From Reyranella sp. CPCC 100927 (lineage in GTDB: Bacteria; Pseudomonadota; Alphaproteobacteria; Reyranellales; Reyranellaceae): a stretch of 57,397 bases of DNA. Shown here one piece after another: positions 54,145 through 57,290 of the stretch. The translations under genes and the position numbers were made by a program. The first letter of the stretch is position 1. The number at the start of each line of letters is the position of its first letter. The notes beneath the pieces were generated by a model. That model did no database searches and was not told where the DNA came from. It saw only the letters and a program-made list of their open reading frames with translations. The stretch is taken from NCBI RefSeq assembly GCF_007859315.1, contig NZ_VOHA01000035.1, forward strand, positions 1 through 57,397, given 5' to 3'.

Positions 54145-55170
54145 TCACCGGCTGGTCCAGTCGCGCACGATCTCGACCAGGCGCGCGACGTTGTCGGGTG
54201 GGGTTTGCGGCAGGATGCCATGGCCGAGATTGAACACATGGCGGCCGCCGGCGAGCTTGCCGAGGATCCGCTTGACCTCGTGCACCATGGTCTCGCCGCC
54301 GGCAATCAGCATGGCCGGATCGAGGTTGCCCTGCACGGCGACGTGCGGCTGCAGTTCCTGCGCCGCCCAGTGGGCGCCGATCGTGGTGTCGATCGACAAC
54401 GCCGCGAACTCAGGCAGCCGGCGGTACATCAGCGCTGCCGGACCAACGCCACGCGGAAAGGCGATCACCGGCACGTCGGCGTGACGGGCCTTCAGCCCAC
54501 GCGCGATCGCCTGCATCGGCTGCACCGACCAGCGGAAAAGCTGTTCTTCCGGCAAAATGCCGGCCCAGCTGTCGAAGATCTGCACCGCGTCGCAGCCGGC
54601 CTGGACCTGCAGATCGAGATGGTCGATGCAGGCCTGGACAAGGGTATCGATCAGGCGGCGGAAACTGTCGGGATGGCCGTAAGCCCACTGCTTGACCTTG
54701 AGGAAGTCACGGCTGCCGCCGCCTTCGATCATGTAGCAGGCGAGCGTGAAGGGCGCGCCGCAGAAGCCGATCAGGGCCGTTTCCGCCGGCAGGGCGGCCC
54801 GCGTCTGGCGGATCGCCTGGTAGACCGGCTGCAGGGTCGGCTCGACGCCGGCGGGCGCCAGCGCGGCAATGTCGGCCGGCCCGGTCAGCGGCTCGAGCCG
54901 GGGGCCTTCACCTTCCTCGAACCACAGCTTGCGGCCCAGCGCCTGCGGGATGACCAGGATGTCGGAAAAGATGATGGCCGCATCGAACCCGAAGCGTCGG
55001 ATCGGCTGCAGCGTGACCTCGGTGGCAAGGTCGGGCGCATAACAAAGATCGAGGAACGATCCCGCCGCGGCACGCGTGGCGCGATATTCCGGCAGGTATC
55101 GGCCGGCTTGTCGCATCAACCAGATCGGCGGCGATGCGACCCGCTCGCCTCTCAGCACACGCAATATCAC
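54145..55170 (-). CDS. hemE: Uroporphyrinogen decarboxylase
   Basis: 341 aa. Signature LMRQAGRYLPEYRATR near the N-terminus, DILVIPQALG, IGFCGAPFTLACY and the C-terminal FNLGHGILPQTPPDNV. It decarboxylates the four acetates of uroporphyrinogen III. The GTG start (ILRVLRGERVASPP) follows AGGGA. First gene of the haem operon and left border of the candidate chromosome origin, as in Caulobacter and Rickettsia. Confidence 0.97.
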   Translation of the reverse strand: MILRVLRGERVASPPIWLMRQAGRYLPEYRATRAAAGSFLDLCYAPDLATEVTLQPIRRFGFDAAIIFSDILVIPQALGRKLWFEEGEGPRLEPLTGPADIAALAPAGVEPTLQPVYQAIRQTRAALPAETALIGFCGAPFTLACYMIEGGGSRDFLKVKQWAYGHPDSFRRLIDTLVQACIDHLDLQVQAGCDAVQIFDSWAGILPEEQLFRWSVQPMQAIARGLKARHADVPVIAFPRGVGPAALMYRRLPEFAALSIDTTIGAHWAAQELQPHVAVQGNLDPAMLIAGGETMVHEVKRILGKLAGGRHVFNLGHGILPQTPPDNVARLVEIVRDWTSR

Positions 55171-55651
55171 CTGGTTCTGTCCCTGGATCGCGATGAGGTC
55201 TGTGCCTCTTCCTTTATCTAAATAAGAGAATCAAGATAGGTGGAAGAAACAGAAGGGCCTGGGAGTGCGGTGGATCAAATCGCCAAGCCTTCCTGACCCC
55301 GCCTCACTGGGGATCGATTCCGCATGCCATGCTACCTGGGGGCAGGTCGCGGCGCACCCTGCGCAGGCCCGGGAAAAGTGCGACATTTCAAACCTCTCGT
55401 CGCGGGACAGGCGGGGCTCAGCGAATCGTGAATCGTGGGGACAAGGTGATGTCGAACAGACAGAGGGGGCGTTTTCCCGGGCCTGGGTGAAGTGCGCGCA
55501 CAGGTGCGCAAGCCACTGCGCTCTCCGTCAGGCTTTCGGGAGCAAAACGCGATAGACGGGTTCGAACGGGGATTGCGGGGATCACCGAACCGGTTACGCT
55601 GGTGTTTTCCCCGGTTGGCAGTGGAGTAGAGTCCCGCGCCAGGAGACCCGC
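55171..55651. other. Candidate chromosomal replication origin (oriC), hemE-PPDK regulator gap
   Basis: A 481-bp gap between divergent hemE and the RP001-type PPDK regulator gene, the place of the origin in Caulobacter and Rickettsia. It has a sharply AT-rich stretch at 55207-55240 (about 70% AT by hand count). TTATCTAAA (55214-55222) matches the DnaA box at seven of nine positions; TGATCCACC (55269-55277, minus strand) is one base from the Caulobacter G-box TGATCCACA. A 14-bp inverted repeat and GTGCGCGCACAGGTGCGCAA follow. No perfect TTATNCACA box and no TTAA-N7-TTAA CtrA site were seen. Confidence 0.55.
55364..55485. repeat. Perfect 14-bp inverted repeat CAGGCCCGGGAAAA in the candidate origin
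   Basis: CAGGCCCGGGAAAA (55364-55377) and TTTTCCCGGGCCTG (55472-55485) are exact inverted copies 94 bp apart. Each contains the 6-bp palindrome CCCGGG. Both are followed or preceded within a few bases by AAGTGCG, suggesting a duplicated protein-binding unit. Confidence 0.8.
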
Positions 55652-56503
55652 ATGCCAGTCCGTGCTCGCAATTTTCATCTGCATCTCGTGTCCGATTCCA
55701 CCGGGGAAACGGTGACCAGCGTGGCGCGCGCCTGCCTGGTGCAGTTCGAAGGCGTGTTTGCCACCGAGCACGTGTGGTCGCTGATCCGCACGCCGACGCA
55801 GATCGACAAGGTGTCCGAGGCGATCGAGGTCAATCGCGGCCCGGTGCTCTATACCCTGGTTGATCATGAACTGCGGGATCGGCTGCGCGAGCATTGCCGG
55901 CGGTTGGGCCTGCCCTGCGTCGGCATCCTCGACCAGGTCATGAGCACGCTGGGCGTGCATTTTCACAGCAAGACGGCGATGTGGCCGGGCCGCCAGCATG
56001 CGCTGGACGACGAATATTTCGGCCGTATCGATGCCATGCACTATACCCTGGCGCACGATGACGGCCAGTCGACGCACGACCTGGATGAAGCCGATGTCAT
56101 CCTGGTCGGACCGTCGCGGACGTCCAAGACGCCGACCTGTGTCTATCTCGCCAACCGCGGCATCAAGGCCGCCAACGTGCCGTTGGTGCCCAAGGTGCCG
56201 CCACCGGATGAACTGGAGGATGTGCGGCGGCCGTTGATCGTGGGCCTGGTGACCGACCCGGAGCGGCTGGTGCAGATCCGCCGCAACCGCCTGCACCTGC
56301 TGCAGCAGGACACCGAGACCGACTACACGGATCTCGAGCAGGTCCAGGAGGAGATGCAGAACGCGCGGCGTCTTTATGCCCGCAACCGCTGGCCCAGCAT
56401 CGACGTTACGCGGCGGTCGATCGAGGAAACGGCGGCTGCCATCCTGCAGATGCTGGATCGCCGTCGCGACGCTAGCGGCTCGCTTCGCATGGAGACCGCC
56501 TAG
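55652..56503 (+). CDS. Pyruvate, phosphate dikinase regulatory protein (DUF299/RP001 family)
   Basis: 283 aa. N-terminal HLVSDSTGETVTSVARACLV, EHVWSLIRTPTQI, and the nucleotide-binding loop GPSRTSKT at 153-160 in VILVGPSRTSKTPTCVYLAN. These are the signatures of the bifunctional kinase/phosphorylase that switches PPDK (or PEP synthase) on and off at a threonine. AGGAGA precedes the ATG. In Caulobacter and Rickettsia this gene is the other border of the replication origin. A secreted-protein gene follows after 2 bp. Confidence 0.95.
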   Translation: MPVRARNFHLHLVSDSTGETVTSVARACLVQFEGVFATEHVWSLIRTPTQIDKVSEAIEVNRGPVLYTLVDHELRDRLREHCRRLGLPCVGILDQVMSTLGVHFHSKTAMWPGRQHALDDEYFGRIDAMHYTLAHDDGQSTHDLDEADVILVGPSRTSKTPTCVYLANRGIKAANVPLVPKVPPPDELEDVRRPLIVGLVTDPERLVQIRRNRLHLLQQDTETDYTDLEQVQEEMQNARRLYARNRWPSIDVTRRSIEETAAAILQMLDRRRDASGSLRMETA

Positions 56504-56981: not shown

Positions 56982-57054
56982 CGGAAGGGGGATATCGGAA
57001 ACAGAGCCCACCTCTCTTCAGCACCATCGAAGCGGCTGCAATATCCCCCTTCCG
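56982..57054. repeat. Inverted repeat CGGAAGGGGGATAT with a 45-bp spacer
   Basis: CGGAAGGGGGATAT (56982-56995) and ATATCCCCCTTCCG (57041-57054) are exact inverted copies. The size (73 bp) and exact ends suggest a REP-type or miniature mobile element; no flanking target duplication was recognised. Confidence 0.8.
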
Positions 57055-57083: not shown

Positions 57084-57290
57084 AAGGTTGCGGAAATTGC
57101 CGAAACCCGTGGCCGCGACAGCGGTGACAGAAACGACAGAATCGCTCCATGACAGCGATTCCAAGGTGTGAGCGGGTTTTCCTGACCTGACAGAAAAGCG
57201 ACAGAAAGCGACAGAAACGCCCCGGCGCTCTCGCGCGCCGGAAGCCCGTGCGAGACGCAGAAAAGGTTGCGGAAATTGCCGAAACCCGTG
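57084..57290. repeat. 28-nt exact direct repeat flanking GACAGAAA tandem units
   Basis: AAGGTTGCGGAAATTGCCGA... occurs at 57084-57111 and 57263-57290, identical over 28 nt. Between the copies lie four GACAGAAA units and one short hairpin. This looks like the boundary of a duplicated intergenic unit. Confidence 0.85.

Follow-up and report, generated by a model that had tools for sequence, protein, structure and literature searches.

The 481-bp gap between hemE and the neighbouring regulator gene of Reyranella sp. CPCC 100927 is very probably the chromosomal replication origin (oriC), lying at the place known for alphaproteobacteria. We favour, with a probability of about 0.83, the joint reading that the gap is the origin and that it would be opened by a DnaA filament extending from a weak box onto a row of triplets. 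A preliminary description of this DNA had already read the gap as oriC, and that reading is now supported by synteny, by the skew in three relatives, by the position of parS, by the instability of the duplex, and by a conserved block of triplets, spacer, and boxes. The origin is a variant in the quality of its boxes and in its control genes.

Here, "the window" is the whole stretch of DNA analysed (57,397 nucleotides), that is, one contig (C29) of a 9.08-Mb draft genome in 81 contigs.

Locus and Border Genes

54145..55170, (−) strand, hemE, left border gene (TIGR01464, 414 bits; cut-off 303)
55652..56503, (+) strand, PPDK/PEPS regulator gene (COG1806), right border gene (NF003742, 340 bits; cut-off 225)
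55171..55651, no strand, putative oriC gap, 481 bp (hemE/regulator gap in 103 of the 110 loci listed)

The preliminary description had hemE and an "RP001 type" gene (its label for 55652..56503) diverging from a 481-bp gap, which is borne out, as both profile matches exceed their cut-offs and the limits 55171-55651 are exact. An intergenic gap between divergent genes is the alphaproteobacterial hemE/COG1806 arrangement, and the same border genes flank the Cori of Caulobacter crescentus and the origin of Rickettsia prowazekii (PMC1914354). The gap has 61% GC, versus 64-71% when the contig is read in windows of 2 kb, and so combines two marks of an origin, namely an AT content above that of its surroundings and an unstable segment (see below).

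Conservation of the Locus Among Relatives

Loci were taken from the best 30 places of a family search, in which the regulator gene was found in 68 of 75 family genomes, and 80 more were those listed when named genomes, many of them titled Reyranella, were scanned for hemE. Among the 110 loci listed, hemE and the regulator gene diverge with a gap between them in 103; the fetched stretch of the other seven contains hemE without a regulator match. The family, which is named from record titles and from L041 (Reyranella aquatilis, dropped since its gap duplicates another in the family), comprises 48 loci, of which 47 have a gap, 43 of these being distinct; L032-L049 were split according to identity and to the length of the gap. 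The gap measures 327-340 bp in 36 of the 47, 481-488 bp in the genus of the window, and 352-386 or 498 bp in the rest. The comparison set outside the family consists of 56 distinct gaps from other alphaproteobacterial origins, with the same place and the same genes.

Two record titles in the sample seem wrong. The hemE/regulator locus of L079, "Mycobacterium sp. KBS0706," is alphaproteobacteria-like, and the metagenome-assembled genome L033, "Caenispirillum bisanense," has a gap of the Reyranella-family type.

Skew, parS, and the Position of dnaA

The preliminary description expected the minimum of the GC skew to fall at the gap. This check was made in three single-contig relatives (G052, G049, and G012; 40 samples of 20 kb each) by a two-state fit, which brackets the gap in two of them, and by a half-and-half scan, which is less clear (see below). 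In the two-state fit (R2 0.60-0.70), the switch from negative to positive lies at 1.900-2.035 Mb in G052 and at 4.654-4.783 Mb in G049, with the gap inside at 1.999 and 4.691 Mb, respectively; in G012 the switch lies at 5.050-5.194 Mb, and the gap, at 4.987 Mb, is 63 kb outside. Around the gap of G052, the fine skew has no sharp step. The skew supports the zone of the gap at a resolution of about 135 kb, the base pair being more than skew alone determines, and one should keep in mind that skew alone failed in several alphaproteobacteria (PMC1914354). In the window itself, skew is −0.018 to the left of the gap and +0.025 in the 1.7 kb to its right, having already turned positive within the hemE region, and it is +0.031 and +0.016 over the first 40 kb of contig C1.

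Exact parS sites were found in six of the nine genomes searched and in none of the other three. Eight sites in five relatives lie 11-20 kb from the regulator gene, on the regulator side, and the parS of the genome under study is at C1:18,009. The first two genes of C1 are those that come next after the regulator gene in G052 and G074, with order and direction unchanged, so the right end of C29 probably joins the left end of C1, which would place parS at a distance of about 20 kb; G072 differs in having the first of these genes on the hemE side. With parS this near, "parAB," which the preliminary description had set against the gap as another place for the minimum, points to the same zone. Close to the end of C29 there are two perfect repeats, a direct one of 28 bp (57084-57111 and 57263-57290, 179 bp apart) and an inverted one of 14 bp (56982-56995 and 57041-57054); a dispersed repeat may have caused the assembly break there.

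The nearness of parS marks a zone rather than a base pair, and an origin at dnaA, or at some other locus of the same zone outside the gap, should be weighed. In the three relatives, dnaA is just 122-145 kb from the gap, and a half-and-half scan of the skew, which presupposes an opposite terminus, is less favourable to the gap than the two-state fit: its near-best range includes dnaA and leaves the gap 21 kb out in G052 (2.02-2.15 Mb), includes both in G012 (4.78-5.06 Mb), and includes neither in G049 (5.06-5.18 Mb). However, dnaA is outside the best two-state bracket in all three relatives, and the best match to a model of the conserved block is in the gap in 7 of 11 genomes (see below). The dnaA of the genome under study is on the separate contig, 866 kb into C1 (C1:866249), and the 20 kb around it have a mean skew of +0.0147 and no clear sign change. 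We regard an origin at dnaA or elsewhere in the zone as highly improbable and keep to the gap. If C1 does join C29, dnaA would be about 0.87 Mb away on the regulator side, versus 122-145 kb on the hemE side in the relatives, which suggests a rearrangement.

Probable Unwinding Segment and Candidate Inverted Repeats

55209..55238, no strand, probable DNA unwinding element (rank 1 of 57,368 30-mers by nearest-neighbour energy)
55334..55347, no strand, short dyad ACCTGGGGGCAGGT (CTGGGGGCAGGT identical in all three same-genus gaps)
55352..55377 (left arm) and 55472-55497 (right arm), no strand, longest candidate inverted repeat (81% complementary)

The AT-rich stretch at 55207-55240, singled out in the preliminary description, has 29% GC, a value equally low in 13 of the 57,364 34-bp windows, at three separate places. 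By nearest-neighbour energy, the lowest stability in the whole window is found at 55209-55238 for 30-mers, at 55212-55251 for 40-mers, and at 55196-55255 for 60-mers. The dyad symmetries noted earlier were recovered as four candidate inverted-repeat pairs, the longest with an arm of 26 nt and 94 nt between the arms. Twelve base pairs of the short dyad are shared by the three gaps of the genus and are absent from the family consensus.

Candidate DnaA Boxes

55269..55277, (+) strand, candidate box GGTGGATCA, one mismatch from the G-box (TGATCCACA, other strand), 13 bp from the triplets described below
55308..55316, (+) strand, TGGGGATCG, whose opposite strand holds the W-box core TCCCCA
55436..55444, (+) strand, TGGGGACAA, which holds the W-box core
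55567..55584, (+) strand, adjoining 9-mers CGGGGATTG CGGGGATCA, oriented as the other boxes

A box search of 55171-55651 found no copy of TTATNCACA within one mismatch. Allowing two mismatches, TTATCCACA has three sites in the gap; of 228 background windows of the same length (481 bp), 2.2% reach that number. The Caulobacter G-box TGATCCACA has four sites at the same tolerance, a count reached by 6.1% of the background windows, so that taken alone it is weak evidence. The GGGGAT/GTGGAT core occurs four times in the gap, always in the same direction, versus 0.62 per kb in both directions in 1-55170.

The boxes of Caulobacter comprise the G-box and the very weak W-box TCCCCA (PMC4285127), and sites of both types in the gap are a likeness to Cori (PMC4285127, PMC4468827): as judged by sequence, there is one candidate G-box at one mismatch, together with two TCCCCA cores. 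The stretches GGATCAAATC (at 55269..55277) and GGGGACAA (at 55436..55444) are identical in all three same-genus gaps, whereas the pair CGGGGATTG CGGGGATCA is identical in one same-genus gap and partly retained in a second.

None of the 43 distinct family gaps has a canonical box within one mismatch, in contrast to the other alphaproteobacterial origins, where TTATCCACA is present at this tolerance in 47 of the 56 distinct gaps. The W-box core, for its part, reaches 5.10/kb in the family gaps versus 0.15/kb in their flanks. The DnaA of the genome under study is a full family match (TIGR00362, 550.6 bits), so it would be the sites that are weak rather than the protein that is altered. The sparse, non-canonical set of the preliminary description therefore stands, although weak and Caulobacter-like is a better description of it than simply sparse.

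A Conserved Block of Triplets, Spacer, and Boxes

55244..55255, (+) strand, four DnaA-trio-like triplets AAG AAA CAG AAG (degenerate TAG TAG CAG TAG TAG)
55256..55259, (+) strand, spacer GGCC, 4 bp, from triplets to boxes (length imposed by the alignment anchor)
55260..55268, (+) strand, box-like 9-mer TGGGAGTGC (five mismatches to the nearest standard box)

The preliminary anatomy of the gap identified the AT-rich segment but overlooked the conserved block beside it. The family alignment has, in order, an AT-rich stretch, the triplets TAG TAG CAG TAG TAG (as read in many gaps of Reyranella type), an interval of 4 bp, and two 9-mers, of the forms TGTGGNNNN and NGGGGATNN. The corresponding block of the window (55244-55277) reads AAG AAA CAG AAG, GGCC, TGGGAGTGC, GGTGGATCA, and the triplets of L004, from the same genus, are AAG ACG CAG AAG. 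Over 17 chosen cores from two genera, 20 of 62 columns are identical.

A block score with fixed spacing, which was devised after the alignment had been seen, with its spacing and triplet rule taken from PMC8287927, and which was compared with shuffles that preserve single-base content only, was reached in the window by none of 100 shuffled versions of the gap. By the same measure, no more than 1 of 100 shuffles reached the score in 42 of the 43 family gaps, all 42 sharing one direction; the remaining gap is that of L009 (p 0.25). Of the 56 gaps from outside the family, 20 gave a p of 0.05 or less with fixed spacing, 15 of the 20 in the direction of the family. The fixed-spacing block is thus not general outside the family, and we make no claim for the class as a whole.

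The basal unwinding system (BUS) of Bacillus subtilis and others has the same order of parts, from a box through a GC spacer to a run of NAN triplets; its commonest spacer is 13 bp, three or more NAN triplets are the rule, and a single-box form is also allowed (PMC8287927). Applying this rule in the form of a box that has at most two mismatches and lies 0-16 bp from at least three NAN triplets, one finds in the gap GGTGGATCA (one mismatch to the G-box), 13 bp, and four NAN triplets, so that the distance from the better box to the triplets equals the commonest published one. The tandem form, with a second box within four mismatches, is absent from the block of the window, since TGGGAGTGC has five. 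The gap also differs from the BUS in having one box within the published mismatch limit, no canonical box, and, in its genus, degenerate triplets. Among the 43 family gaps, 18 have a box within two mismatches at the place given by the block, 40 have both 9-mers within four mismatches, and 32 have three or more NAN triplets beside the spacer; 10 combine box and triplets at the fixed place. In its loose form, the rule yields 25 candidate places in the window and is by itself uninformative. We find the candidate block convincing through its conservation and position, not through the published rule.

Of six profile variants built from other genera (g3 and g4), four have their best window match exactly at the block. 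The full g3 profile (four training sequences) gives it 23.3 bits; the next-best score is 11.3 bits within the window, and 60 kb of C1 yield 15.5. The core profiles of g4 and of g3+g4 were rejected, the gap not being top-ranked in the window. In G052, the g3 core profile gives the gap 28.0 bits versus 20.4 for the best match in 800 kb of samples (40 samples).

A model made without genera g1, g2, and g5 ranked the gap first in the held-out genomes G071 (E 1.9e-6) and G074 (E 0.0023), and also in five from the genera that it covers, a part of them having supplied training sequences. Its best match is the block in the gap in 7 of the 11 genomes searched. It missed the gap in G072, in G073 (where the gap is perhaps unassembled), in G001, and in the genome under study, whose best match (E 0.2) is elsewhere; in these four, the model scored 150 of about 1,260-2,490 first-look candidates.

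Could the gap be oriC and the AT-rich segment still be opened by DnaA at the boxes alone, without any part for the triplets? The degenerate triplets of the genus (in both the window and L004) lend themselves to this reading, as do the 11 of 43 family gaps with fewer than three NAN triplets beside the spacer, and the 20 of 56 gaps outside the family that reach a p of 0.05 with fixed spacing. Set against these are the block scores of 42 of the 43 family gaps and the 20 identical columns of the cores from two genera. Opening without triplets is in our view possible but doubtful, and filament growth from the weak box onto the trio-like triplets would be the most likely mechanism.

GANTC Sites and CcrM

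55228..55232, no strand, GANTC site, a CcrM target, within the probable unwinding element; the AGAATC there is identical in all three same-genus gaps
55316..55320, no strand, GANTC site (sequence search)
55423..55434, no strand, two GANTC sites, at 55423 and 55430 (sequence search)
55629..55633, no strand, GANTC site (sequence search)

The five GANTC sites of the gap were matched by none of the 228 background windows, and several such sites are a further likeness to Cori (PMC3973325). Their density is 13.5/kb in the family gaps versus 1.71/kb in the flanks, and a shuffled gap has 1.24 on average; three or more are present in 41 of the 43 family gaps, and one in that of G052. The 56 gaps outside the family have 7.82/kb, again versus 1.71/kb in flanks.

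A RAMA-domain protein was found in eight of nine genomes, G072 being without a match. That of the genome under study scores 611 bits against the NCBIfam model for CcrM, below the curated cut-off of 830, and is, by its sequence, a CcrM homologue. G072, of the same genus and given as 99% complete, has five GANTC sites in its gap and no RAMA-domain (CcrM-like) match.

These densities bear on the suggestion that the gap is merely a two-way promoter, its AT-rich part and motifs being promoter or regulator sites, with the origin elsewhere. Since hemE and the regulator gene are divergent, their promoters must lie in the gap, and GANTC is generally commoner in the intergenic DNA of CcrM-bearing alphaproteobacteria (PMC3973325). 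However, the densities of GANTC and of the W-box core in the family gaps (13.5 and 5.10/kb) are far above those of intergenic samples, namely 2.17 and 0.38/kb in G052 and 1.40 and 0.60/kb in the genome under study, in which "intergenic" was defined by a crude ORF rule and one piece from the latter partly overlaps hemE and the gap. The skew and parS of the relatives also indicate the zone of the gap, and the block shares its order and spacing with the published unwinding module. We give the promoter-only explanation hardly any credence.

CtrA and Other Control Genes

The preliminary description held that the origin lacks CtrA sites and that its control would accordingly differ from that of Caulobacter, a view that is supported and can be extended. 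The gap of the window contains no TTAA, so there is no CtrA half-site; TTAA-N7-TTAA is absent from it and from all 43 family gaps, unlike Cori. According to PMC4468827, no CtrA sites are observed in most other alphaproteobacterial origins, and the lack of such sites here is therefore not new.

The stronger observation is that CtrA itself was not found family-wide: the model NF045991 at E 1e-60 matched in none of the 75 family genomes, with at most 33 candidates per genome scored. Under the same threshold, it matched in 83 of 115 genomes of the class, Caulobacter being among the positive controls; two of the 115 belong to the family, and 30 of the other 113 are also without a match. In nine genomes with all candidates scored, the best CtrA-like matches have 138-175 bits, versus 212-431 in the class. 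The top match of G049 (175 bits) was rejected as CtrA; its locus also holds a kinase-like frame, and we take the protein to be an ordinary OmpR-type regulator.

In the same number of genomes (nine), GcrA was not found above its cut-off, G074 having one weak match below it, and PF06627, which we take to be SciP although the model's own label is DUF1153, had no match; these absences, too, set the origin apart from that of Caulobacter. PF10090, presumably ChpT, matched in five of nine genomes at E 0.001 and in three of nine above the cut-off, in each case only over short stretches of long frames.

Proposed Mechanism

In the mechanism that we propose, DnaA would bind the weak G- and W-type boxes, whose cores point one way, and a filament starting from the box at 55269-55277 would extend over 13 bp to reach the strand of the triplets (55244-55255). 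By drawing this strand single-stranded, the filament would open 55209-55238 for helicase loading, and forks would then proceed in both directions, one through hemE and the other through the regulator gene. Weak boxes should make firing dependent on cooperative filling. Methylation by CcrM of the five GANTC sites, one of them in the unwinding segment, may supply a once-per-cycle signal that works without CtrA.

A broader proposal, which we consider rather unlikely, is that the family origin has lost both its strong DnaA boxes and the CtrA/GcrA layer, with timing left to weak cooperative boxes and to CcrM methylation directly at the origin. If true, an alphaproteobacterium would be using CcrM in a logic like that of Dam/SeqA, with a GANTC site placed inside the unwinding segment in the genus studied here.

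Significance

No paper on the replication origin of Reyranella was found in a search of the open-access literature, and the present analysis gives a base-level map of the probable origin in this family. It makes two matters testable: whether a DnaA-trio-like module may work in alphaproteobacteria with weak boxes alone, and how replication would be timed in an alphaproteobacterium that has CcrM but where neither CtrA nor GcrA was found.
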